64,000 bases of DNA from Haliotis asinina (taxonomy: Eukaryota > Mollusca > Gastropoda > Lepetellida > Haliotidae), in NCBI RefSeq assembly GCF_037392515.1, contig NC_090295.1, positions 12,667,001-12,731,000 on the forward strand, given 5' to 3'. This document shows positions 5,001-47,903 of the stretch, piece by piece. The translations under genes and the position numbers were made by a program. A model generated the notes under the pieces. The model was not told the origin of the DNA. It worked only from the letters and a program-made list of their open reading frames with translations, and did no database searches. How positions within the stretch are numbered: position 1 is the first letter of the stretch; each line of letters opens with the position of its first letter.

Positions 5001-6616
5001 CGCGGTCGCTCTTCACACAGGGGACACAGGGGACACAGGGGACACAGGGGTAGCGTTTTGTCTAAACGTTCGTTCGTTACGTCGAAGGTGCAGGTTCGAT
5101 CCCCACATGGATAAAATATGAGAAGCAAAATTTCTGGTGTCACTCGCTGTTGTATTACTGGAAAAAACACCTCGCTCTTCACAACGATTCCGGGCCTCAC
5201 CTGACACATGTAAGAGTTCACAGAGATGAGGACTTACTCGTAGTTACCTCTCCGATTGTAATCTTCAAACATTAAAAGCGGAGGTGTAGATGATTGTTCA
5301 TGCCATTAGCCACTGTATTGTCTGGCCCATGCACACGCACACAGGAAACTACGGTTTTAACGAATGCAGTGGGCCACCAGTTTTTATGTGATATAGTTCA
5401 TTACTCCGTCACGCATTTCTACGCAAAATGTACCGTTAGCATGCGATAAAAAACAGTCCGCTATATCTACCAGTTCGTAAACTTATTAACTTTAGTTTTA
5501 GACAAATTTGACTTAAATTCTGATGTAAGTACAGCAACGATGGATGTGCTTTATGTATGTCGTGTCTGTTTCAGTCAGAATCACTAAACTTCATTATGTG
5601 GACACAAGTCTATCAGCTGATAACTCTCCTGCCGTTATTCTGGGTGGATTTCATTCCCCATTTTGGAATGGTATGTCGGTACAAATAGTTTGTAGCACCT
5701 TCTCGCACGCACATTCGTTTTGTATCACACAAAGCACGTGAAGATCCGAGTTCGAATTGGTATCCCGTAACCCATGTTTGTCGTAAAGTAAAGTTTGTCG
5801 GGTGGTCAGGTTCGCTGATTTGGTTGACATATGTCATCGTATCCCAATTGCTCAGAACGATGCTCAAGTTGTTGGTAACTTTATTGGTGAAGACTTGATT
5901 ATCTACAGACACCGGCAAGTAGCTGTAATCTTGCTGAGTGCGACATTAAACATATCACACGCACGCACGCACTCATGCACGCTCGCACACTTGTATTATT
6001 GTATCACAAAATACCACGACTTTCAGGATTATGTGTTTAGAACTGTATATGTGCATGTGTTTGGGTTTAACTTTGTCACTGCGCCAGTGAGCACCTGTCG
6101 ATGGATACTTGACGCTTCTGAAATCGATTAGTATTATGTGTCATTAGTGTTATTATTAGGACAAAATCAATTTTATAATTCCCTGTTTGGTTTCAGGCTG
6201 CTTCAATCCAGGAGTTTGGTGGTATTCTAGGAACTGGACTTCGATGCTGCTTCAGCTCAGACCCCGGATGTAACGGCTTATGGTGGAAACTCTGGTTGTT
6301 TCAGATTGGCTATTCCTTCGGGAATCTCTTCCAATTTCTATTAATAGAATACGCAGAGGGAGCTGTTTATGCGGTTGTCGTCCAATCAATGGTGACTCCC
6401 TTGGCAACGTTGTTCTGGACCCTGTTCAAGTTTGACGTCCAAAACAACCATTTCTATTGGTCCCCGGAGTTCAACATTACCACGGCCTTCACCTTGGGCG
6501 GTCTCCTCATCATCGTGCCAACCGTAATTATGTACAACTACTTCAGCAAACAAGACGCCAAGGAGAAAGAACTGAAAGAGGCACATGTTCGTGACATCAT
6601 TGACAATCACATGTAA
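2085..6616 (+). CDS. CRT-like transporter, copy 1 (diverged paralogue, 4 exons, 443 aa)
   Basis: Exons 2085-2691, 4577-4785, 5575-5670 and 6197-6616 join to 1332 bases with GT-AG introns of phases 1, 0 and 0. An in-frame TGA directly precedes the chosen ATG; Met9 is the only near alternative. About ten hydrophobic helices are visible (roughly residues 78-100, 113-134, 149-171, 178-200, then two in exon 2, one in exon 3 and three in exon 4), the layout of the drug/metabolite superfamily. Family marks are SRTPPYLQ before helix 4, WPFIFALGFLP in helix 6, FWVDFIP at the end of helix 7 and YWSPEFNITT before helix 10. Length is close to PfCRT (424 aa). A D-x-x-x-L-L signal (52-57) and loop cysteines 321, 322 and 329 fit a sorted endomembrane carrier. 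Substrate unknown. Much diverged from copies 2-4 (shorter loop in exon 2, different N-terminus). The family call rests on remembered sequences. Confidence 0.85.
2712..2806. repeat. T-rich (GTTTT)n tract
   Basis: Poly-T and GTTTT units directly after the exon 1 donor of copy 1. Confidence 0.85.
2925..3022 (+). mobile_element. SINE-A, internally deleted
   Basis: Head TAGCCTAATGGTTAAAG, then a deletion to GTGCGTGAAATCCATTTTAG and a CTCA run; the B box is lost. Confidence 0.7.
3164..3295 (+). mobile_element. SINE-B fragment
   Basis: CCCATGCTTGTCATAAGAGG, AACGGGATCGGGT and GATGTTGATCACTTGATTTT, ending before the usual tail. Confidence 0.75.
3536..3706. mobile_element. MITE with ~38-bp terminal inverted repeats
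   Basis: Left end TATACTGAGGGACAAAAATA (onward to 3574) matches the complement of the right end (3669-3706), both continuing through AAGGGATCACATGAAAGC. About 171 bp, TA at both borders, as expected for Tc1/mariner-mobilised elements. Noncoding. Confidence 0.8.
4225..4463 (+). mobile_element. SINE-B tail followed by SINE-A tail
   Basis: 4225-4355 is a decayed SINE-B 3' half (GATCATTGGATTGTCTTGTC to GCAGCGTTAAA); 4400-4463 is a SINE-A 3' end (GCTAAAAGCGGCGTAAAAAT). In intron 1 of copy 1. Confidence 0.6.
5018..5053. repeat. 10-bp tandem repeat x ~3.5 (ACACAGGGG)
   Basis: GGGGACACAG repeated, abutting a SINE-A head. Confidence 0.8.
5054..5175 (+). mobile_element. SINE-A, 3'-truncated
   Basis: AACGTTCGTTCGTTACGTCG, B box GGTTCGATCCC, body TTCTGGTGTCACTCGCTG. 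In intron 2 of copy 1. Confidence 0.75.
5743..5955 (+). mobile_element. SINE-B
   Basis: Head GAGTTCGAATTGG looks like a B box. Then CCATGTTTGTCGTAAAG, GGGTGGTCAGGTTCGCTGAT, ACGATGCTCAAGTTGTTGG and TTGCTGAGTGCGACATTAAA. In intron 3 of copy 1. Confidence 0.8.
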
Positions 6617-8243: not shown

Positions 8244-8401
8244 TACGTACAAAATTATATATTTATAAACTATATTTGTACGTGTGGTGTTGCTGAACTC
8301 AAGGACTGTGGCACGTGATATTTCATAATTGTGTGATATTTTATATTGTTACTCGCCCGTTTGAAGAACTGCCGTGTAATATTTTTAAGGCAATGTCACT
8401 A

Positions 8402-9562
8402 TAAGTGTAACGCAATTTTTCAGGGAATATTCATTTGCAGAAGCCCGAGGTCTTCCATTAACTTCCATTAACCAAAGACCGAGTGCTCCTGCTAATGATA
8501 ATGCCCTGAAAAATAGCGTTACCGTTATTATAGCTAAAATGAACTGTTACAGAATTTTTAATAAAACAAGAACAAAAACAACGACATCGGTTTAGAAGCA
8601 TTTACTGCCAACAACAAACGACGGAGGTCACTGACACACTTTTTACAACTATAGACACGTCATAGATCAACACAGATGATGTCACTATTGAGGGTGACGA
8701 CATTCGACCTTGACCTTTGCCCATACTACCAGCCGCCATTGTTTTCAGTGATGAACAACGATATTTTCATTGCTGTATGTTGTCATTTATGGTACAATTG
8801 TTATGGTTGGCACAGGCAGGAAAGTGCATAATACAGGTACATGTGACGAATGTGAGCCAGATATATGGCCAAAAATGAACTCTTGTTCAAACGAGCCGTA
8901 GGTGATTGAACTTCAACAGCTGAGCTAGTTATGACGTCACCTAACAACGGGCTTGATAATGGCCCGTCGTCAAACTTTTTGCGGGCCATTATCAAGCCCG
9001 TTGTTAGGTGACGTCATAACTAGCTCAGCTGTTGAAGTTCAATCACCTACGGCTCGTTTGAACTTGGGTTCATCACTGACCATATATCTGGCTCACATTC
9101 GTCACATGTACCTGTGCCATTACGCACTTTCCTGCCTGTGCCAACCATAACAAGTGTACCATAAATGACAACATACTGCAATGAAAATATCGACTTGTAG
9201 TCTAACGTTGTTGATCACTGAAAACAATGGTGGCTGGTAGTATGGGCAAAGGTCAAGGTCGAATGTCGTCACTCTCTAAAGTGACTTCATCTGTGTTGTT
9301 CTATGAAATATCTATATTTGTAAAAAGTGTGTCAGTGACCTCCGTCGTTTTGTTGTTGGCAGTAAATGCTTTTAAACCGATGCCGCTGTTTTTATTCTTA
9401 TTTTATTAAACAGTCTGTTCGTTTTAGCTATAATAACGGTAACGCTATTTTTCAGGGCATTATCATTTGCAGAAGCCCTCGGTCTTTTCAACTGCCCTCC
9501 TTCGTTAATGAAAGACCTCGGGCTTCTGCAAATGATAATGCCCTGAAAAATAGCGTTACCCT
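8402..9562. mobile_element. Foldback element, ~1.16-kb near-perfect palindrome
   Basis: Two arms of about 570 bases meet at a 15-base loop (8967-8981). The inner arms (8880-8966 and 8982-9065) are almost identical inverted copies holding GTGACGTCATAACTAGCTCA. Each outer end is itself a small palindrome bounded by AACGCTATTTTTCAGGGCAT and its complement (8406-8522 and 9439-9561). No transposase is inside. The two similar minus and plus frames at 8801-8995 and 8953-9150 are this symmetry, not genes. Class undetermined. Confidence 0.9.
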
Positions 9563-10263
9563 TATAATACATGGTGGTAGAGCGAACTGTATTTCTTTTC
9601 TAATAAGGTGCCGTATTTAATCATTTCTAAGCATAATTTCGATCAATCTATGGCAGAAAACAAACGACGGTGTCTGTGACCTAAATTAAGAATCCTCGCA
9701 CAGGGCTAATTGACGCGCTCTTCTTTTGACGTGTCAGCCCCCTACGTTAGGACAAACGTTACTAGAAAAACAAATGATGAACAGTTTGGTGAAAGTTTAT
9801 GTTTGGGTTAAATATCTTCTCTAGATCATTCTAATTACATCTGTGATTCCCTTAAACCATACAAGGCAAAATGACCGTCTCATTTCTACTAGCAACGAAA
9901 GTTTAGATCAGTACATTCAGCTGAAGCTGACTATAGTCATGCGACATTCCACGATTGCATTGTGGGAATGTAAACATTGCAAACATGACCGTGTCCCTGT
10001 AAAGTTTTGAGTCGAACTTTGGGGCATTTTATCGTTCGGAAAACATACACATAATGTTTCCAACGGTGATGTTAGCTGTGTGATGCAACTGCAAACCAAG
10101 AAACGGGATGCGACGAAGCAGTTTACTGTGGGAGGCTGTACGAGGCGATGGCAACTGACATCCATCGTGACGTCAGTTACATTGTGACGTAATGCAAAAA
10201 GTACACATTTTCGTCTGATAAAGTATTGTCGGCGCCTTTGATCTTTCACCGAAGCGTCTTAGA

Positions 10264-20822: not shown

Positions 20823-22149
20823 TGACCACCCTTATCTATCATGACACCGGGTAGCGTTACGCGGGTGCAAACTGTTGGGATGTGTTTCGCTGTTAAATTT
20901 TGCAGACCTGAACGTTCTCACAAAATATATTTTTCTCAAGTTTGTCTTCAGAAATCTTCTTTAGGATTTCTTATCTTCAATAGTAACGAATTTTTGGGTT
21001 GTTTTGTTTTTTTCACACATATCTTACGATTTCTGATCGAGTCTTAGTGACTTTTGCAACTGCAAGTCGAGGTGTCCAGTATCCCAAATCAACTTTATAA
21101 GGAATTAATTTCACGTTTTAATCAATGTTATAAAGAAGAATGCTGTTTTAGCGCGAAAAAGAAGGCACATCTAAATCACTGACTTGGTCTAATGTAACAG
21201 AAACAGAAATTGCTGCAACGGAAATTCATTCATTTCCATAGATAATTCAAGGTCGCAAAAGTGGAATTGACGGGGCACAATTTCTAAAATCTTGCTCATA
21301 AATCGGAACAGGACGTTGCTATTAATGTATCTGTGGTGTCTAAAGATGATCAGAATGTTTCAGGTTATAACTGGAGGTGATTTATACTGATTATAAAATG
21401 TTCACATTTCGTCTGTTTCATGTCAGGACATTGTCGACTGGATCATCCTAAGTGGTCAAGTATATTGTGGTGATGTTTGTCCCATGTTTTAAATTCCACC
21501 ATGAAGCGTATGTTTGCACCTCCTGTAATATTGAACATGTTATGTTTTAGGCCCATACTGTGAATTTTCTTGTGTACTCTCAGCTATCGGCCTTGGTGTT
21601 TGTCGCACTTATGTTCTGGGTTGACCTAATTCCTGGATTTGGAATGGTAAGCACTTTGCATTATCCATTTACCAAGAAAACCAAGATATCTTTAATTAAA
21701 ACCACAAGCACTAGGATCTATGGAAACCGTGATGGGACATCGTTACATTATCGCATTGTCGCGTTGACCCTATTTCAAAAGCAAGCAAAAAGATGGAAAA
21801 TTAACTACAATGCGGCCTCGCGACATTTCGACCATATTTCACATTGTCACATTTTGAAAAAAATACGTGTCTGTTGATCTACAGGGCGACATACGACATA
21901 GCGACAATTTTCTTTGCATTGTCACCCCATCTAAGAAGGTAAAAATGCCTAAAACTTCATAACAATGTCATTAAAATTACCGCGAAAATACTAAGATCTC
22001 GTTAAAATTACCTCGAGCACTAAATTCTGGTTTAAACGTGATTGCAGAAATGGCATTTTGTTTCTGTTGAAAAAGACTGTCTTTCACACCGGTATTTCAT
22101 TGAAACAACATTTTGTTCACTCCTTATTAATTCTTTGTTTACAACCCGT

Positions 22150-22875: not shown

Positions 22876-23194
22876 CAATACCCAGTCCTTATGCGAACGA
22901 AATGTGATGGAGTATTGTTTCAGGACAATACTAGTAAATTAAATATCATATATAGTTCCCTAGTCGTAATCAAAATAGGTTCTTTGGCGTGATGAATAAA
23001 TGTCTTCAACACTCGCTTAATCACCTCACCTTAAAAATCAAAATGGTGAAATCACATTCAATGTTGCTTTTTTCTTTTTGTGCTTAGTAGACACCTGGAA
23101 AAGAATGTACTGACACTTGTACTTTTCATGGGCTTTCCATATGCGTTTCCATCAGAATATTTCTCCTGTATATGGGGTGGGTGGGATACCCTTA

Positions 23195-23300
23195 AAAATG
23201 AAATCGATCTCTCGAGAACCGGATACAATGTGTAAAGCCTATTTCTGTTGTCCCTTATCATCATATTGATGGAATATTGATAAAAGTGGCGTACAACTAA
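23195..23300 (+). mobile_element. Decayed SINE-A tail, seed of the 106-bp unit
   Basis: ACAATGTGTAAAGCCTATTT to AAAAGTGGCGTACAACTAAA is recognisably SINE-A, its 3' part overlapping the 106-bp unit. Confidence 0.7.
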
Positions 23301-23352
23301 ATACACGCATATATCTGTATATGGACAGGGTTCTTTCGCTTCCGTTGATTTA
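23248..23352. repeat. Single unamplified counterpart of the 106-bp unit (copy 2)
   Basis: One unit in intron 3 of copy 2, directly after retroposon-derived sequence and about 25 bases before the exon 4 acceptor. It shows the state before amplification. Confidence 0.85.
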
Positions 23353-23877
23353 CCCAACACATTGGTTTCTTTTACAGGCCGACTCTTTCCAGGAACTGTT
23401 ACGCCGCGTTTCTTTGGGCATGCGCTGTAGTGTCTCCACGGCCACATCCTGCCAACACCTGTCAATGAAAGTATTTCTGATGATATCATCTTTCATCGTT
23501 GGATACCTGTTTCATTTTCTGCTGATCAAGCATGCTGAGGGAGCAATCCTTGCATCTTTGGTTCAAGCCATGAGAACCCCCATTGCATCTATTCTCTGGA
23601 CGCTGTATCATTACAACGAGGATTTAGATTTACTGTACTGGTCCCCGGAGTTCAACATAACCACGTGTTTTTTGATAGGCGGACTAATTATTGTAATGCC
23701 AGCTATGCTTGTTTATAACTACTTCAGCAATGAAGAAATGAAAAGTGTGTGTATAAGGGAACGACAGCTGATTGTAACCGGCAATGAAAACATCAACTCA
23801 TAGTTTGGAATCGATCAATATAACATGTGTGTTTGGTCAGAGGTTTACTGAACGTTATACCCTACCCCTTATTTTAG

Positions 23878-30800: not shown

Positions 30801-33800
30801 TGAGGGACAATGAGTTTTGTCTGGGGTCGTTCATGCCCAGCAATGGCCATGCGTTGAGTTGCGTTCGAAATTTCGACGTGTGTCAAAAGCCATTGTTCGT
30901 CCTCTCAGTGTTTATTGTTTTGGCATCCGCATTTATTAACTTGTCCATTTGGCTGACGCATGTCATTGTATCACAGTTGCGAAGATCAATGCTGATGCTC
31001 ATTGGATTGTCTATTTAGAGCGATTTAGTTCATCAAGACGAGGAAATAGAACTTTTCAGCATTTAGACGACTACCTGTTTCAGTCTTCTTTCAAATGGAA
31101 TGTTCTGGAGGGCGTTCTCATAGATGCAAATTGGGGTCATTTGTCAGGCTCATCTAATACTTAAGCAGTATTTCTGGTGTTCACCGCTATGGATTTGCTG
31201 GAATATTGCTAATTGCTAAAACCATACTCGCTCACTCACTGACCACCTTTATCTATCATGACACCATGTAGCTGTACGCACGTGCAAACTGTTGGGATGT
31301 GTTTCGTTGCTAAATTTTGCAGACCTAAATGTTCTTGCAAAATATATTTGTTGTCAGCATGTTTGTGTTTGTAACAGATTGTGTTAACATTTATAGGTCA
31401 CGATGACCTTGAAGGTCCGGAGTAGGATAGGCCTTCAGCAACCTAGGCTTGCTATAAAAGGCGACTATACTTGTCCCAAGAGGTGACTAACGGGATCGGG
31501 TGGTCAGACTCGCTCACTTGGTTGACACGTCATCGGTTCCCAATTGCGCAGATCGATGCTCATGTTGTTGATCACTGGATTGTCTGGTCCAGACTCGATT
31601 ATTTACAGACAGTCGCCATATAGCTGGAATATTGCTGAATGAGGCGTAAACCTAAACTCACTCACTTATAGGTCACAATGACCTTCTTACTTTACGAGGA
31701 CATTTCTCATCTTCAGTGGTAACGAACTTGGCTACTTGACAGTGGAATTTGTGTGGGGTTTTCTTTCACACAGATTTCATGATTTGTGACCGAATCTTTG
31801 TAACTTTTGTAACTACAAGTCGAGGTGAAATAAATGTCCCGTATGCGTCCAAATTCAAATTTATAAGGAATTAATTGCACGTTTTAATCAATGTTATGAA
31901 GCAGCATGTGCTTTTTAACGCGAAAACAAGACACATATCTAAAACACTGACTTGGTCTAATGTAACAGAACAAAATGTGATTATGAAATTGCTGTAACGG
32001 GAATTCATTCATGGTCATAGATAATTCAAGATCGCAAAAATGGAATTGACGGGGCACAATTTGTAAACTCTTCTTCATAAATCGGAACTGGACTTTTCTA
32101 TTAATGTATCTGTGGTGTCTGAACATCAACAGAATGTTTGAGGATATAACTGGAGGTGATTTAAACTGATTATAAAATGTTCACACTTCGTCTGTTCCAT
32201 GTCAGGATATGTCGTCAAGGATATTGTGGTGATGTTTGTCCCATGTTTTTAATTCCACCATGAAGCGTGTTTTTGCACCTGATGTAATATTGAACACGTT
32301 ATGTTTTAGGTCCATACTGTGAACTTTCTCGTCTACGGCCAGCTATCGGCCTTAGTGTTTGTCGTACTTCTGTTCTGGGTTGACCTAATTCCTGGATTTG
32401 GAATGGTAAGCACTTTGCATTATCCATTTACCAAGAAAACCAAGATATCTTTAATTATACCAAAAGCACTAGGATCTATGGAATCCTACATGTGACATTG
32501 TCGCGTTATAGCTTTGCCGCGTTGTCGTCATCTCAAAAACAAGTAAAAAGGGGCAAAATTAACCAAAGCGCGGCGATACCAGAACGCGACATTTCGAACA
32601 GTTTTCGCATTGTCACTCTGTCGCGTTGTCGCATTATGTTTCCACTCATCGATTCATCTACCAGGCGACATACGACATAGCGATAATTTTCAAGATCGAA
32701 ATATGTCGCGTTGTCGTATTGTCGCCCAATCTAAGGAGTTAGAAATGTCAGTACAATGTCATGAAATTTACCGCGAACACCAAGATCTTCATGTTGCCGC
32801 GAAAATACTAAGATCTCATCCACATTACCTCGAGCACTAACAAAAATTCAAATTCTGGTTTAAATGTGATTGCAGACATGTCATGTTGTTTTTGTTGAAA
32901 AGGACAATGTCTAATTTCGAATTTGACAATCCATGTGATGAGCTCTCACCAGTATGTCATTGTAATAGCGCTTAGCTCACTTCTTGTTAAATTTTTGTTT
33001 ACAATGACGAACCCCAACGATACCCCGTCCTTCCTGTGCACGGAAAGAGATGGAGTATTGTTTTAGGACAATACTTGTAAATTAAATGCCACTGGACATC
33101 ACTGTGTCGATATTATTTCCTAAGCATAATCAAAATTGGGTCTTTGGCGTGACGAGCAAATGTCTTCACCACTCGCTTAATCATCTCACCTTAAAATTCA
33201 TGAATGTCAAATCAAAATGGTGAAATCTCACTCAATGTTGCTTTTTTCTTTTTGTGCTTAGTAGACACCTGGAAAAGAATGTACTGACACTTATACTTTT
33301 CATGTTTTTTCTTATGCGTTTCCATCAGAATATTTCTCCTGTATATGGGGTGTGTGGGATACCCTAAAAAATGAAAGCGGTCTCTCGAGAACCGGATACA
33401 ATGTGTAAAGCCTATTTCTGTTGTCCTCTATCATGATATTGATGGAATATTGATAAACGTGGCGTAAAACTAAACACACTCATATTTGTGTGTATGGACA
33501 GGGTTTTGTCGCTTTCGTTTATTTCGTTGTCCGTTATCATGATATTGATGGAATATTGATAAACGTGACGTAAAACTAAACACACACATATTTCTGTATA
33601 TGGACAGGGTTTTGTCGCTTTCGTTTATTTCGCTGTCCGTTATCATGATATTGATGGAATATTGATAAACGTGACGTAAAACTAAACACACACATATTTC
33701 TGTATATGGACAGGGTTTTGTCGCTTGCGTTTATTTCCTTGTCCGTTATCATGATATTGATGGAATATTGATAAACATGACGTAAAACTAAACACACACA

Positions 33801-36800
33801 TATTTCTGTATATGGACAGGGTTTTGTCGCTTGCGATTATTTCGTTGTCCGTTATCATGATATTGATGGACTATCGATAAACGTGACGTACAACTAAACA
33901 CACACATATTTCTGTATATGGACAGGGTTTTGTCGCTTTCGTTTATTTCGTTGTCCGTTATCATGATATTGATGGAATATTGATAAACGTGGCGTAAAAC
34001 TAAACACACACATATTTCTGTATATCGACAGGGTTTTGTCGCTTTCGTTTATTTCGTTGTCCGTTATCATGATATTGAGGGAATATTGATAAACGTGACG
34101 TAAAACTGAACACACACATATTTCTGTATATGGACAGGGTTTTGTCGCTTGCGTTTATTTCCTTGTCCGTTATCATGATATTGATGGAATATTGATAAAC
34201 ATGACGTAAAACTAAACACACACATATTTCTGTATATGGACAGGGTTTTGTCGCTTGCGATTATTTCGTTGTCCGTTATCATGATATTGATGGAAAATCG
34301 ATAAACGTGACGTAAAACTGAACACACACATATTTCTGTATATGGACAGGGTTTTGTTGCTTGCGTTTATTTCGTTGTCCGTTATCATGATATTGATGGA
34401 ATATTGATAAACATGACGTAAAACTAAACACACACACATTTCTGTATATGGACAGGGTTTTGTCGCTTTCGTTTATTTCGTTGTCCGCTATCATGATATT
34501 GATGGAATATTGATAAGCGTTACGTAAAACTAAACACACACATATTTCTGTATATGGACAGGGTTTTGTCGCTTTCGTTTATTTCATTGTCCGTTATCAT
34601 GATATTGATGGAATATTGATAAACGTGACGTAAAACTAAACACACACATATTTCTGTATATGGACAGGGTTTTGTCGCTTTCGTTTATTTCGTTGTCTGT
34701 TACCATGATATTGATGGAATATTGATAAACGTGACGTAAAACTAAACACACACATATTTCTGTATATGGACAGGGTTTTGTCGCTTGCGTTTATTTCCTT
34801 GTCCGTGATCATGATATTGATGGAATATTGATAAACGTGACGTAAAACTGAACACACACATATTTCTGTATATGGACAGGGTTTTGTCGCTTGCGTTTAT
34901 TTCGTTGTCCGTTATCATGATATTGATGGAATATTGATAAACGTGACGTAAAACAAAACACACACATATTTCTGTTTGTAGACAGTTGTTTGTCACTTTC
35001 GTTTATTTCGTTGTCCGTTATCATGATATTGATGGAATATTGATAAACGTGACGTAAAACTAAACACACACATATTTCTGTATATGGACAGGGTTTTGTC
35101 GCTTGCGTTTATTTCGTTTTCCGTTATCATGATATTGATGGAATATTGATAAACGTGACATAAAACTAAACACACACATATTTCTGTATATGGACAGGGT
35201 TTTGTCGCTTTCGTTTATTTCGTTGTCCGTTATCATGATATTGATGGAATATTGATAAACGTGACGTAAAACTAAACACACACATATTTCTGTATATGGA
35301 CAGGGTTTTGTCGCTTTCGTTTATTTCGTTGTCCGTTATCATGATATTGATGGAATATTGATAAACGTGAGGTAAAACTAAACACACACATATTTCTGTA
35401 TATGGACAGGGTTTTGTCGCTTGCGTTTATTTCCTTGTCCGTTATCATGATGTTGATGGAATATTGATAAACGTGACGTAAAACTAAACACACACATATT
35501 TCTGTATATGGACAGGGTTTTGTCGCTTTCGTTTATTTCGTTGTCCGTTATCATGATATTGAGGGAATATTGATAAACGTGACGTAAAACTGAACACACA
35601 CATATTTCTGTATATGGACAGGGTTTTGTCGCTTTCGTTTATTTCGTTGTCCGTTATCATGATATTGATGGAATATTGATAAACGTGACGTAAAACTGAA
35701 CACACACATATTTCTGTATATGGACAGGGTTTTGTCGCTTTCGTTTATTTCGTTGTCCGTTATCATGATATTGATGGAATATTGATAAACGTGACGTAAA
35801 ACTAAACACACACATATTTCTGTATATGGACAGGGTTTTGTCGCTTTCGTTTATTTCGTTGTCCGTTATCATGATATTGATGGAATATTGATAAACGTGA
35901 CGTAAAACTAAACACACACATATTTCTGTATATGGACAGGGTTTTGTCGCTTTCGTTTATTTCGTTGTCCGTTATCATGATATTGATGGAATATTGATAA
36001 ACGTGACGTAAAACTAAACACACACATATTTCTGTATATGGACAGGGTTTTGTCGCTTTCGTTTATTTCGTTTTCCGTTATCATGATATTGATGGAATAT
36101 TGATAAACGTGACGTAAAACTGAACACACACATATTTCTGTATATGGACAGGGTTTTGTCGCTTTCGTTTATTTCGTTGTCCGTTATCATGATATTGATG
36201 GAATATTGATAAACGTGACGTAAAACTAAACACACACATATTTCTGTATATGGACAGGGTTTTGTCGCTTTCGTTTATTTCGTTGTCCGTTATCATGATA
36301 TTGATGGAATATTGATAAACGTGACGTAAAACTAAACACACACATATTTCTGTATATGGACAGGGTTTTGTCGCTTGCGTTTGTTTCGTTGTCCGTTATC
36401 ATGATATTGATGGAATATTGATAAACGTGACGTAAAACTAAACACACACATATTTCTGTATATGGACAGGGTTTTGTCGCTTTCGTTTATTTCGTTGTCC
36501 GTTATCATGATATTGATGGAATATTGATAAGCGTTACGTAAAACTAAACACACACATATTTCTGTATATGGACAGGGTTTTGTCGCTTGCGTTTATTTCG
36601 TTGTCCGTTATCATGATATTGATGGAATATTGATAAACGTGACGTAAAACTAAACACACACATATTTCTGTATATGGACAGGGTTTTGTCGCTTTCGTTT
36701 ATTTCGTTGTCCGTTATCATGATATTGATGGAATATTGATAAACGTGACGTAAAACTAAACACACACATATTTCTGTATATGGACAGGGTTTTGTCGCTT

Positions 36801-37898
36801 TCGTTTATTTCGTTGTCCGTTATCATGATATTGATGGAATATTGATAAACGTGACGTAAAACTAAACACACACATATTTCTGTATATGGACAGGGTTTTG
36901 TCGCTTTCGTTTATTTCGTTGTCCGTTATCATGATATTGATGGAATATTGATAAACGTGACGTAAAACTAAACACACACATATTTCTGTATATGGACAGG
37001 GTTTTGTCGCTTTCGTTTATTTCGTTGTCCGTTATCATGATATTGATGGAATATTGATAAACGTGACGTAAAACTAAACACACACATATTTCTGTATATG
37101 GACAGGGTTTTGTCGCTTGCGTTTATTTCCTTGTCCGTTATCATGATATTGATGGAATATTGATAAACGTGACGTAAAACTAAACACACACACATTTCTA
37201 TATATGGACAGGGTTTTGCCGCTTGCGTTTATTTCGTTGTCCGTTATCATGATATTGATGGAATATTGATAAACGTGACGTAAAACTAAACACACACATA
37301 TTTCTGTATATGGACAGGGTTTTGTCGCTTTCGTTTATTTCGTTGTCCGTTATCATGATATTGATGGAATATTGATAAACGTGACGTAAAACTAAACACA
37401 CACACATTTCTGTATATGGACAGGGTTTTATCGCTTGCGTTTATTTGACCAACGCATTGGTTTCTTTTACAGGCCGACTCTTTCCAGGAACTGTTGCGCC
37501 GCTTTTCTTTGGGCATGCGCTGTAGTGTCTCTACGGCCACATCCTGCCAACACCTGTCATTGAAAGTGGTGCTGATGATATCAGCTCACTGTGTTGGATA
37601 CCTGTTTCATTTTCTGCTGATCAAGCATGCCGAGGGAGCAATCCTTGCATCTTTGGTTCAAGCCATGAGAACCCCCATTGCATCTATTCTCTGGACACTG
37701 TATCATTACAACGAGGATTTAGATTTACTGTACTGGTCCCCGGAGTTCAACATAACCACGTGTTTTTTGATAGGCGGACTAATTATTGTAATGCCAGCTA
37801 TGCTTGTTTATAACTACTTCAGCAATGAAGAAATGAAAAGTGTGTATATGAGGGAACGACAGCTGGTTGTACCCGGCAATGAAAGCATCAACTCATAG
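27826..37898 (+). CDS. CRT-like transporter, copy 3 (4 exons, 427 aa)
   Basis: Exons 27826-28354, 30490-30722, 32310-32405 and 37473-37898 give 1284 bases, one open frame of 427 codons and a TAG stop; introns are phase 1, 0, 0. Predicted helices: about 55-76, 91-111, 123-145, 152-176 (exon 1), two in exon 2, one in exon 3, three in exon 4. The exon 4 start carries the helix 7-8 loop with Cys303 and Cys311; PfCRT has a disulphide-bonded loop at the same place. The N-terminus is hydrophilic and acidic with E-x-x-x-L-L at 22-27, a canonical adaptor-binding signal for endosomes and lysosomes. Likely role: export of small solutes, perhaps peptides or glutathione-like compounds, from an acidic organelle, inferred from the family only. 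Intron 3 holds the 38-unit, 106-bp minisatellite, which ends about 25 bases before the exon 4 acceptor. Confidence 0.88.
28379..28575 (-). mobile_element. SINE-B just inside intron 1 of copy 3
   Basis: Same insertion as 12821-13024. Confidence 0.82.
29784..30043 (-). mobile_element. SINE-B, near full length, intron 1 of copy 3
   Basis: GAGTTTTACGCCGCACTCAG, GGACCAGACACTCCAGTGAT, CCGATCCCGTTTGTCGCCTC and GCTGAAGGCCAATCCTATCC. Confidence 0.87.
31411..31665 (+). mobile_element. SINE-B with ~20-bp target duplication, intron 2 of copy 3
   Basis: Flanked by TTATAGGTCACGATGACCTT (31391-31410) and the same sequence with one change (31666-31685). Copy 4 has the uninterrupted site TTATAGGTCACGAT near 44996. 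Confidence 0.88.
33421..37446. repeat. Minisatellite, 106-bp unit x 38, in intron 3 of copy 3
   Basis: Exactly 106 bases per step throughout. A unit runs from TTGTCCGTTATCATGATATT through TGGAATATTGATAAACGTG, GCGTAAAACTAAACACACA and CTGTATATGGACAGGGTTTT to TCGTTTATTTCG. The first part is the 3' end of a tRNA-type retroposon; the rest is intron sequence. Copy 2 has one unit at the same place (23248-23352) and copy 4 has none. Units differ at a few positions (TTTCG or TTGCG, CGTTG or CCTTG, ACGTG or ACATG). The minus strand looks open in overlapping 73-codon frames only because the unit has few stops. Confidence 0.97.
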
Positions 37899-38597
37899 TT
37901 TGGAATCGATCAATATAACATGTGTGTTTGGTCAGAGGTTTACTGAACGTCATACCCTACCCTGACGCTTTTCTCCCTCTTAGGGATGACGCTTTTCTCC
38001 CTCTTAGGGATGGTAGGGTACGTAGCTTTGTGGGTAAAGCGTTCGGTCGTCAAGGTACAATACACGTTGTTCATTGGTCCCTTCGGGCTCGGGGAACACA
38101 AACAAACATCGATGGTGAACAACGCATTTATCTTACCGAAAACATTTAAACTGAAGCATGGGTATCGGATCGTACACTTCAGCCAACCTGTTTGAATCAA
38201 AAGATTCGATCAAATCTTGCAGTTGCTGTTTTTCCCGTCGGTATTGTCTTAATAAAGTAGAACTGCATTTGAACGGTTTGTTAAAATTTATTAATTGGAA
38301 AGAGAGTCAAATGTTTTCGTAGCCATCGCTAGATTTTGTGGACGACACAAGAAAAACAGATTTAGAGTTATCTCCCTTCCACCGATTGCCATTCGCATCG
38401 GTAATTTCCGTGCACTGTTCGTCATTAAATGTTATTCGAGATTAGAGAAAAAGTAACTACCACGAAGGACCGAATGAGTTGCTATAGGCAGCGGGGTGTA
38501 TTGCAATACACCTCGCTTGTACACACGGTGCATTGAAAATAATAGAAGAGCGCTCAGTCAATCAGACAGCGACATTTGTGTGTGAGGTAAGATAATG

Positions 38598-43700: not shown

Positions 43701-46700
43701 GTCACAAACCAATGATTATTGTTTTGTCAACCTCGTGGGTTTTGTTCGTGTAGACCTCATCGTTTCCGTTGTCTCCTCAGAGCATCTAATGTACTCATTA
43801 TGATAGAATTAGGAAGTGTGGTAGGAGATTACGTAGGATAGTGGGGAGATTTCAAAACTGAAACTTTTCTACCCGTTAAGGTCCGGGTTAGAATTGGTCT
43901 TCACTATCCCATGCTTGTCGTGAGAGGCGACTAACGGGATCGGATGGTCAGGCTCACTGACTTGTTTGCCATCGTTTGCCATGTCATCGCATCCCAGTTG
44001 TGTAGGCCGATGCTCATGCTTTTGATCACAGGATTGGCTGGTCCAGACTCGGTTGTTTTCAGACCGTCATAGCTGGATTTTTTTTCTGGGTGTGGCGTAA
44101 AATGACAAGCGAAACACTTTCACTCCTCCAATGACGTCTAGTTTAGTGGTAGGCGTTGCCACAAACTTCTCTTTGTCATATCCCAGGGATGTTCAGTGAG
44201 ATAAAGGCCAGGGGTGATGGATTCGGACGGCTTGTGCATTGTCGTCCTGAAAGAAATCGTCGACCCAGATGATTTACAACTTGGCCATCAAAGGGTGTCG
44301 GTATGCTCTCCTAGTTGAACTGACAAAAGCTGCCTTGGGTTTACGTTCATTTCCTCATGGACAGACACGACTACGTCTTTTCAAGACGTGAAGATTAAAT
44401 TAGAGATTAGCATGACACGGAAGCAGCGACTGTGCCACAGTTTTGTGTACACGATAGACGACTGTTACCGCTATGGCGTTTTGTGAGCGACGGCACAACA
44501 GGAACGAACTGCTTTTGGACGAATTTCATTCGGAGCTAAATTTGGTCGGATGAGTCGATCCTGAATTCTTGTATTTGACCCAGGGCGTTCTAAATGGAGG
44601 TAAACCGTAAGCTTTTGGGGGTTAGTTGGTACTTGTTTCATTGTCTGCTAATCATAATCTGTGAAATATTAAAAGTATTGGTCACTGCAAGCAGACTTCC
44701 GCGATCGTTTAGTCTGTAGACGATCTTCCCGTTGTTAACTCCACGTCTCAAGATAAACACAGTGAAGGAAATGAAGAAAATCACGACAGTGTGATGAGCC
44801 GGATCTACCCGTGAAGATCCGTGTTATAACTGATCTTCAGCAACCCTTGCTCCCCATAAACGGGATCGGGGTTTCCAGCCTGGCTGACATAGTTCACAGA
44901 CGTCATTTTGTTGTTTAACGTTCCAGACCTAAACGGTCTTGCAAATGATATTGGTCCTCAGCATCTAATATTTTCTGTGATAGATATATTTACATTTATA
45001 GGTCACGATCATCGAAATGCATGAGGGGGGTATTTCTCATGTTGTTTGTTCTTCAGGTAACATCGAACATGTTGTGTTTTAGGCCCAGACCGTGAATTTT
45101 CTCGTGTATGCTCAGCTATCGGCCTTGGTGTTTGTCGTACTTCTGTTCTGGGCAGACCTCATTCCTGGATTTGGAATGGTAAGCACTTTACATTGACCAT
45201 TTACTCTCTGTTATCTGTGTCTGTTATCTGTGTCTGTTATCTGTGGACTTTGCCCTGAATACAAAGTCGCAGCCTGGGAGAAAGCCTTTGATGGAGCAAA
45301 CTGCATGGAGAATGATTAGTCTCTTTCCTTTCCCTAGAGGCAGCTTTCTACGTGACCCCTTATCACCCCCATCGTGTACCCACTGGCTGCTGGCAGTGTA
45401 CGAGGCATTGACCCAGGTCTCATCCAATTACACTGGCTCGAACCCTTCCTCGCGCTTCTTCTTTATTACCCTGAGAAAATTATTTCTCAAGCGAACGATA
45501 TCAAAGAGAACTGACCTATTCTCCTCCGAAATTTTCTTTTAACGATACCCAAAAGAGTGTAAGAGTCGCCGGAATTTGTGCTTTGATACTCTGAGTTTGT
45601 GTTCTTGATTCAAATGCTTTTCCAAAATGTTCAGCGATATGTATTTGTTTTCAGAGTAAAGTTTGTTGATACACTGCCTTACAAGGTTCTTTTGAAAGTT
45701 GTCCAAATGTTTTAATTTGTGTGATTTGCCACGACTCCTCCCTACTTCGCATCGCCCTCACAATATTATGTTTGTGTTCCAGAACATTTGTCAGTACCCT
45801 TGCTGATGCTCCTAAAGCTCTTGATGCCTGTTTACGGAATTTATTCATGGCATAAAATGGCTTGCCCCTTTCGACTTCAGCACGGAAAAATCGTACACTT
45901 TAATCATCAACTGTTTCACGTCAGCATTCAACTTCATTATTCATCAGGCATGTGTATCTCGTGTACGACGAGATAGTGGCTGTTCCGTTTCTGCAGTTTT
46001 ACCCCTCCGCGGCAGATAACAACTTTTGCGTTTTTTTAACAACTTTTTGAGGGGAGACCGGAAAATTTTCAAATATCATATAGCTGTTTGGTATTCAACT
46101 AGAAGAAAGCTGAGTATTAGTAAATGATAAACATGTATACTATTTATATTTTTGTTAAAAATATATGATAAAATTTGCAATTCATCAGTCCGTTTCTGTA
46201 CTATTTCATTAAGCTCACTCACACACTCACTCACTCACCCAAATGGGCTTCATACTGTAGCGACAATATCCAGATTTCATTCAAAGTAAACCCAGCACTA
46301 AATTCTGCTATAAACGTCATTAGCACTAAATTCTGCTATAAACGTCATTAGCACTAAATTCTGCTATAAACGTCATTGCAGAAAAGGCATTTTGTTTCTG
46401 TGATGACGTTCATAACACTATTTGATTGTAATGGCCTTTTCTGATCATGAAGGCGTCCCACGATACCCCATCTTGTTCAAGGACTTACAAATGTTTGTCA
46501 GTGTTTGCACATATATTTTTCCATGTGGTAATTACCATTGCTCCTTGAAAACGTTAATGTCAAATGAAATATTGTAAAATCGCAATGTTGCCTTTTCCTC
46601 GTGCTCATTGGTGATTTGAGGAGGGTGCTAACGGTGGGGCGGATGTTCCGGAATTCTTTAAATATCACATTTGAGGAGGGTGCTAACGGTGGGGCGGATG

Positions 46701-47903
46701 TTCCGGAATTCTTTAAATATCACATTTGAGGAGGGTGCTAACGGTGGGGCGGATGTTCCGGAATTCTTTTGATATCACACTTTGACAGTCATTCATAATG
46801 TGACTAGCACATTTTTATTAGTATAGGAGAACGCTTGGAAGTCCACGTGTCTCAGACCCGTGAAAGTACCGTGTAGAATAGGCCTTCAGCAACTCATGTT
46901 TGCTATAAAAGGCAACTATGCTTGTCGTAAGAGGCGACTGACTGGATCGGGTGGTCAGGCTCGCTGACTTGGTTGACACATATCATCCCGTTCCCCATTG
47001 CGTAGATCGATGCTCATGTTGTTGATCACTGGATTGTCTGGTCCAGACTCAATTATTTATAGACCGCTGCTATATAGCTGGAATATTGCAGCGTGCGGCG
47101 TAAAACTAAACTCATTCACCACATGTTTCAATACCATATATTTATATATTTCGTGATTTCCTCCCACAATTCAATACAAAGTATGCAAAAGAAACCTGAA
47201 TAGAATGTAGTAACACTTGTTCTGTTGTAATAACACGTGTTCCCTTATTTGCCTCCGTCAGTATATTTTTCATGTATATGGTGGCGGGATAGTCTTTAGG
47301 TTAATGCGTGCACTCAAGGCCCGGTTCGATTCCACACATGGATACATTGTGTAAAGCTCATTTCTGATGCCCCCAGCCGTTATATTGCTGAAATATTTCT
47401 AAACGCGTTGTAAACTCATGTCCGCACAGTGTTTTGTCAGTCGCATATTTGACGCCCATCAATGTTTTCTTTTACAGGCCGACTCTTTCCAGGAACTGTT
47501 GCGCCGCTTTTCTTTGGGCATGCGCTGTAGTGTCTCCACGGCCACATCCTGTCAACACCTGTCATTGAAAGTGGTGCTGATGATATCAGCTCACTGTGTT
47601 GGATACCTGTTTCATTTTCTGCTGATCAAGCATGCCGAGGGAGCAATCCTTGCATCTTTAGTTCAAGCCATGAGAACACCCATTGCATCTATATTCTGGA
47701 CACTGTATCATTACAACGAGGATTTAGATTTACTGTACTGGTCCCCGGAGTTCAACATAACCACGTGTTTTTTGATAGGCGGACTAATTATTGTAATGCC
47801 AGCTATGCTTGTTTATAACTACTTCAGCAATGAGGAAATGAAAAGTGTGTATATGAGGGAACGACAGTTGGTTGTACCCGGCAATGAGAACATCAACTCA
47901 TAG
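40742..47903 (+). CDS. CRT-like transporter, copy 4 (4 exons, 427 aa)
   Basis: Exons 40742-41270, 43326-43558, 45083-45178 and 47478-47903 total 1284 bases with the same phases as the other copies and a TAG stop. Exon 4 differs from copy 3 at only two residues, whereas exon 1 differs at eleven, several clustered in helix 1 (68-69 are Gly-Thr here, Val-Leu in copy 3, Met-Leu in copy 2) and helix 3 (129, 133, 134, 142). The acidic dileucine signal (22-27) and loop cysteines 303 and 311 are kept. The cytosol-to-organelle topology and solute are inferred from the CRT-like family. This copy has the shortest introns of the three recent copies. Two CLEAR-like motifs lie 136-161 bases before the ATG. 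It is the best candidate for the ancestral-function member of the recent trio. Confidence 0.88.
41291..41400 (-). mobile_element. SINE-B, internally deleted, intron 1 of copy 4
   Basis: Same insertion as 12821-13024 and 28379-28575, with the middle missing between TTTACGCTGG and GATATCATGACATG. Confidence 0.75.
42321..42409. repeat. (TATG)n microsatellite, ~22 units
   Basis: Pure TATG run in intron 1 of copy 4. Confidence 0.97.
42500..42708 (-). repeat. CRE-rich dispersed repeat, copy b
   Basis: Inverted relative to the other two; keeps ATGACGTCATAC and GCATTAGCATTGTGACGTCA. Confidence 0.72.
43877..44107 (+). mobile_element. SINE-B, intron 2 of copy 4
   Basis: GGTCCGGGTTAGAATTGG head, CATGCTTGTCGTGAGAGGCG and a TGTGGCGTAAAATG end. 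Confidence 0.83.
44812..44908 (+). mobile_element. SINE-B 5' fragment, intron 2 of copy 4
   Basis: GATCTTCAGCAACCCTTGCT and AACGGGATCGGG, then lost. Confidence 0.65.
45225..45850 (-). mobile_element. DDE transposase remnant (Tc1/IS630-like DDE_3 type)
   Basis: Read right to left: an N-terminal helical region (ISLNILEKHLNQEHKLRVSK), then FRRLLHSFGYR, then LDETWVNASYTAS with the first catalytic Asp, then GKGKRLIILHAV and GFLPGCDFVF. The later catalytic residues are missing; at least two stops (after FGYR and before LDETW) interrupt it. It lies in intron 3 of copy 4 only, so it arrived after the duplication or was lost elsewhere. Ends and terminal repeats not found. Confidence 0.7.
46293..46376. 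repeat. 28-bp tandem repeat x 3
   Basis: AGCACTAAATTCTGCTATAA plus ACGTCATT, three times; one copy exists in intron 3 of copy 2 (near 22017). Confidence 0.92.
46615..46779. repeat. 55-bp tandem repeat x 3
   Basis: Units at 46615, 46670 and 46725 hold TTTGAGGAGGGTGCTAACGG and TTCCGGAATTCTTT. Confidence 0.95.
46859..47118 (+). mobile_element. SINE-B, near full length, intron 3 of copy 4
   Basis: GTAGAATAGGCCTTCAGCAA through GTCTGGTCCAGACTCAATTA to GCGTAAAACTAAACTCATTC. Confidence 0.86.
47283..47415 (+). mobile_element. SINE-A, intron 3 of copy 4
   Basis: GGTTCGATTCCACACATGG, GCCGTTATATTGCTGAAATA and a decayed tail; position matches the SINE-A seed in copies 2 and 3. Confidence 0.8.

Follow-up and report, generated by a model that had tools for sequence, protein, structure and literature searches.

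A 38-unit minisatellite in a last intron of Haliotis asinina, probably expanded locally from one segment of SINE and intron

Gene copies and anatomy of the array

A window of 64,000 nucleotides of Haliotis asinina DNA (NC_090295.1, positions 12,667,001 to 12,731,000, forward strand) was analysed. The window contains four tandem copies of one gene. With all 10 candidates scored, the last exon as a protein query matched four places in the 1.14-Gb assembly; these were all within the window, and no internal stop occurred in any of the four. The Pfam search gave only a weak hit, to CRT-like transporters, with E 0.005 and 16.4 bits where the cut-off is 26.9. The last exons of copies 3 and 4 were 97.7% alike (dN 0.006, dS 0.09), the intron upstream had a K2P distance of 0.38, and similarity dropped at both exon edges. 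Gene conversion limited to the exon is a likely cause of this likeness. The dS between copies 2 and 3 was 0.07, below that between copies 3 and 4 despite the conversion reading for the latter pair. For the last exons of copies 2 and 3, dN was 0.042 and dS 0.071; by these estimates the copy 2 protein (23378-23803) is the faster-changing one. Elsewhere in the window, the minus strand at 8400-9566 matched itself inverted at 86%, as expected of a large palindromic element.

The last intron of copy 3, the third of the four paralogues, contains a tandem array. TRF reported one array at 33413-37446 with a period of 106, 38.0 copies, 96% matches, 0% indels, and a score of 7527. The first-pass annotation had placed a 38-unit array at 33421..37446; the array, the count, and the end agreed with TRF, and the start was moved 8 bases upstream. 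Beyond unit 38 come the 6-base stub TTATTT and a further 26 intronic bases, after which the last exon of copy 3 begins. Among the 38 units, 11 were identical to the consensus, and 25 distinct unit sequences were present. The count of 38 could be an assembly product of a collapsed or inflated array, since the 11 exact units make the precise length hard to assemble. However, the 25 distinct sequences anchor much of the array, which is only 4 kb long, and such an error would alter the count and not the finding. An artefactual count is considered very improbable.

The same annotation had described the unit as part SINE-A tail and part intron, which the unit map bore out. The unit combines about 69 bases from the SINE 3' end with the 3' target-site duplication (16 bases) and 21 intronic bases. 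As read from the sequence, unit positions 1-69 are the SINE 3' part and tail, 70-85 the target-site duplication, and 86-106 intron; because of the shared repeat, positions 1-6 could equally be assigned to the right flank. SINE-A is presumably a tRNA-type SINE. About 69 of the 106 unit bases aligned to the SINE family in the window, which places the array among the TE-derived (SINE-derived) tandem repeats. The features of the locus are listed in Table 1.

Table 1. Positions of the array, its component parts, and the corresponding features of the paralogues, numbered along the window
Feature	Position	Strand	Basis
5' target-site duplication of the SINE, ATATTTCTCCTGTATATGG	33330..33348	+	read from sequence; alignment
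SINE-A in copy 3, internally shortened; its 3' part founds the unit; ends approximate	33349..33481	+	alignment with window copies of the family; ends read from sequence
3' target-site duplication, ATATTTGTGTGTATGG in unit 1 and ATATTTCTGTATATGG in the unit consensus; present in every unit	33482..33497	+	read from sequence
Tandem array: 38 units, each 106 bp, then 6-base stub TTATTT of a further unit	33413..37446	+	TRF, unit map
Left short direct repeat TATTT, within the SINE	33413..33417	+	
Unit 1, unfused left flank TATTTCTG kept; G at unit position 50	33413..33518	+	unit map
Units 2-38, each opening with the fused junction	33519..37440	+	unit map
Right short direct repeat TATTT, intronic, with 26 bases from there to the exon	37442..37446	+	
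Copy 3 last exon, open, 26 bases downstream of the array	37473..37898	+	
Copy 2 unit segment, once	23240..23346	+	alignment
Copy 2 last exon	23378..23803	+	
Copy 4 unit segment, once, with an 18-base alignment gap	47359..47445	+	alignment
Copy 4 last exon	47478..47903	+	

Two further observations concern the 3' end of copy 3. In the region 37441-37472, the array ends 26 bases before the exon beside TTTGAC, where the fused junctions read TTTC; TTTGAC could be a branch point. About 65 bases past the copy 3 stop codon, a 24-base unit occurs in 2.1 copies (37963-38012), and copy 2 has no counterpart at the aligned place.

Unit sequences in the paralogues and the genome

Copy 2 could be aligned across the array site, with 22878-23351 matching the left side (84%) and 23240-23867 the right side (94%). 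The alignment confirmed the single segment previously noted in copy 2 at this site, and its length was corrected from 106 to 107 bases measured repeat to repeat (23240 to 23347). Copy 4, annotated as having the SINE and no array, indeed had the SINE insertion at the same place with alignable flanks, and one homologous segment was added to this description. The copy 4 flank upstream of the SINE scored 59 against a shuffle maximum of 39. The part after the SINE passed narrowly against copy 3, with a score of 26 and a best of 25 in 2000 mononucleotide shuffles. Against copy 2 the score of this part was 14, reached by 885 of 2000 shuffles, and homology was not detectable. In copy 1 (5760-6260), no counterpart of the segment was found by eye or among the self-BLAST matches listed (200 of 208; at least 80 bases, E up to 1e-8).

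In the intron left of the segment, the K2P distance between copies 2 and 3 was 0.121 (360 sites), and the distances of these copies to copy 4 were 0.36 and 0.38 (164 and 165 sites). Relative to copy 4, a 17-base gap in the SINE was common to copies 2 and 3; the wider alignment of the SINE family puts the SINE gaps elsewhere. These comparisons make copies 2 and 3 sisters and copy 4 the outgroup for this intron. Since the single state is present in both the outgroup and the sister, the array needs only one gain, in copy 3.

Unit 1 differed from the consensus of the other units at 6 of 98 core sites, about half the divergence of copy 2 from copy 3 (40 of 360, p 0.08). In the age test against this flank rate, P was 0.083 (Poisson) and 0.099 (Fisher), which is not significant, and conversion between units would lower the 6/98 anyway. 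This weak test points to an array that would be younger than the duplication of copies 2 and 3. The alternative is that the array predates the split of copies 2 and 3 and that copy 2 later contracted to one unit, which would make it the "after" state. Tandem arrays do contract, and the age test is not significant against an older array. A perfect contraction between the first and the last unit would restore the exact single segment, so that the sequence alone could not tell the two histories apart. However, an older array followed by contraction in copy 2 requires two events instead of one, copy 4 also being single. Furthermore, copy 2 is about equally distant from all 38 units (11-15 core-site differences from each) and has neither the fused junction nor A at unit position 50. 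An older array with later contraction is considered unlikely. The first-pass annotation had taken the duplication to give a before-and-after view of satellite formation; the single and expanded states were both seen, and the "before" state is deduced from two unexpanded paralogues, a picture that contraction of copy 2 would resemble.

A second before-and-after pair was seen in the window. Three perfect 28-base units lie at 46294-46377 in copy 4, and the unit is single in copy 2 (22016-22043) and, with an 11-base insert, in copy 3. No flanking direct repeat was found by eye at 46294-46377. This case indicates that such births are not unique even inside the window and that flanking repeats are not always needed.

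The genome was searched with a 65-base query made of the non-SINE half and the unit junction, and both first-look candidates were scored. Across the 1.14-Gb assembly the query had 39 matches, of which 38 fell in the array and 1 in copy 2. Copy 4 was not reported by this query, so relatives equally diverged would escape it. With a 1080-base query, other loci were matched over 47-69 bases in the SINE part, among the matches listed (40 of 439 candidates scored). A few of these listed matches extended into the target-site positions, reaching unit position 85 at most. Queries containing the SINE matched across the genome (40 of 439 and 40 of 1074 candidates scored).

The dispersal of the SINE part would suit import of the array from a dispersed satellite family. 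However, copy 2 and, less strongly, copy 4 have the non-SINE half as part of this intron itself. Within the sensitivity of the 65-base query, all 39 of 39 matches lay in the array or copy 2, and arrays of the same unit at other loci, as in a dispersed satellite DNA family, were not found. Within that sensitivity, import was rejected as next to impossible. The earlier proposal that the array formed locally from one segment, for which related arrays at many other loci had been named as the refuting result, was supported by this genome-wide search.

The abundance of tandem repeats was investigated by TRF in 20 stretches of 10 kb (200 kb) at fixed positions on contigs C1-C5. The sample gave 106 TRF rows, 29 of which had units of at least 30 bases and at least 3 copies (overlapping rows included). 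An array of at least 10 units of at least 30 bases was present in 6 of the 20 stretches, so large arrays as such are common in this genome. The SINE-tail core GTAAAAC occurred in one sampled row with a unit of at least 30 bases (212 bp, 1.9 copies). One sampled stretch (C4:29900001-29910000) was filled end to end by a 201-base tandem repeat of 49 copies, a long satellite array.

Founding junction and growth of the array

The repeat-to-repeat length was 107 bases in unit 1 and 106 bases in units 2-38. All 37 of units 2-38 matched TT[AG]TTTC at the fused junction, and 30 of the 37 read exactly TTATTTCG. This single junction, with one base missing in all of these units, suggests one founding join. 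A was present at unit position 50 in 36 of the 38 units, and G in unit 1, unit 6, and copy 2. Unit 6 carries the older G, so the change at position 50 is not universal among units 2-38.

The single common junction and the jump to many units could also be explained if an excised one-unit circle had been copied by the rolling-circle mode and had re-entered at the same place as the seed of the array. This route is highly unlikely, because both unfused flanks are retained and the non-SINE half was found at no third locus with the 65-base query. Moreover, unit 1 is distinct and the other units diverge gradually, which stepwise duplication explains without a circle.

The origin of the short repeats was investigated by an alignment of copies 2, 3, and 4 with 12 further SINE-family members from the window. 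The SINE consensus reads CCCATTTCTG, and 12 of 13 aligned copies had C at the changed place (by eye; copies 2 and 3 left out). The left repeat was CATTT in the SINE consensus and copy 4, and TATTT in copies 2 and 3. Copies 3 and 4 had TATTTGAC as the right repeat, and copy 2 had GATTT. As the left TATTT is common to copies 2 and 3 and the right TATTTGAC to copies 3 and 4, the match was probably present in the common ancestor of copies 2 and 3.

The array very probably represents a local expansion of one segment through short repeats, with the following proposed history. Insertion of the SINE into the last intron preceded the separation of paralogues 2, 3, and 4, as the same place and the flanks common to the three copies show. 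A C-to-T change within the SINE, in the lineage leading to copies 2 and 3, would have turned CATTT into TATTT, as the family consensus and copy 4 support. The new TATTT would match the existing TATTT about 107 bases downstream, beside the exon. The segment may then have been duplicated once, in copy 3 only, by slippage or unequal exchange between the two 5-base repeats, with one T lost at the join. With the longer homology that the duplicate offered, unequal crossing-over, conversion, or further slippage could have raised the number of units to 38. The simplest history would be one founding duplication followed by expansion.

A more specific reading is tentative and rather doubtful: the change from CATTT to TATTT armed the segment before the gene duplication, only copy 3 fired, and copy 2 lost the match again by its GATTT. 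If this is true, the paralogues of one genome record the mutation that armed the segment, the founding event, and the sister that was disarmed. As a chance figure for the TATTT pair that bounds the segment in copy 3, break pairs drawn at random at distances of 60-150 bases within three stretches of the region had at least 5 bases in common in 0.6-0.9% of cases, a figure that ignores the one-base slip at the join and rises when the slip is allowed for.

Whether the unit might fold and so make the polymerase pause was also investigated. When the unit was folded as a single strand, neither strand suggested a pause (z -0.48 and -0.55), and z was 0.20 for the copy 4 segment. The unexpanded segment of copy 2 folded somewhat better than shuffles (z -1.67, 13/200), the opposite of a pause-driven birth in copy 3 alone. 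Folding was therefore unsupported as the cause.

The units were not uniform along the array. The mean number of changes from the consensus was 1.06 in units 21-38 and 2.68 in units 2-20 (one-sided permutation p 0.003). As units 21-38 are more uniform, recent turnover seems concentrated near the exon; the pattern would fit a most recent turnover in the right half. Units 4 and 8 were identical with four variants in common, and the pairs 11/30 and 7/21 had two each. These unit pairs hint at block copying. In the test of block-wise expansion, lag 4 (p 0.017) and lag 19 (p 0.016) stood out singly, and none did after correction (p 0.25). The array is most likely a neutral expansion of the intron by about 3.9 kb.

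Relation to known minisatellites

Minisatellites have been described as arising from SINEs, and through slippage or unequal exchange that involves flanking repeats of 5-10 bases; the models are credited to Haber and Louis 1998, Taylor and Breden 2000, and Jurka and Gentles 2006 (excerpts of PMC6947457 and PMC3389668). As the Haber-Louis model appears in these excerpts, the present locus resembles it in being bounded by a 5-base direct repeat, in having single-copy relatives, and in having one founding junction. The repeat TATTT at 33413 and 37442 is at the lower limit of the 5-10 bp range, and copies 2 and 4 are the unexpanded relatives, the part of copy 4 after the SINE passing narrowly. Unlike the model, this locus lost one base at the join, and its unexpanded state is found in paralogues of the same genome.

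The separated short repeats are also consistent with the slipped-strand mispairing at non-contiguous repeats of Taylor and Breden, in the form given in the PMC3389668 excerpt. However, the almost full-length terminal unit (shorter by up to 10%) that this source uses as a criterion is absent, and only a 6-base stub is present. According to the same excerpt, the two published models explain only about 6% of human TE-derived tandem repeats.

SINE-derived minisatellites include those from human Alu (Jurka and Gentles) and mouse B1 (Bois et al.), cited in the excerpts of PMC6947457 and PMC3389668. The unit here is likewise partly founded on SINE sequence. Unlike the Alu and B1 cases as cited there, it spans the SINE end and includes unique intron along with the 3' target-site duplication, so that its place of origin is fixed. 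The array has 38 units, compared with means of 2.30-2.42 units for three Alu classes in the PMC3389668 excerpt. No such array is mentioned in the titles or abstract openings of the papers found on abalone and minisatellites.

The locus fits the Haber-Louis picture and is a new, unusually complete example of an already published kind; the accepted picture of minisatellite birth is unchanged by it. The first step of such a birth is hard to see after an array has grown. This locus displays the single segment, the flanks on either side, the founding junction, and the expanded array within one genome. It is thereby a clean worked example and offers a candidate for tests of array mutation in related species.
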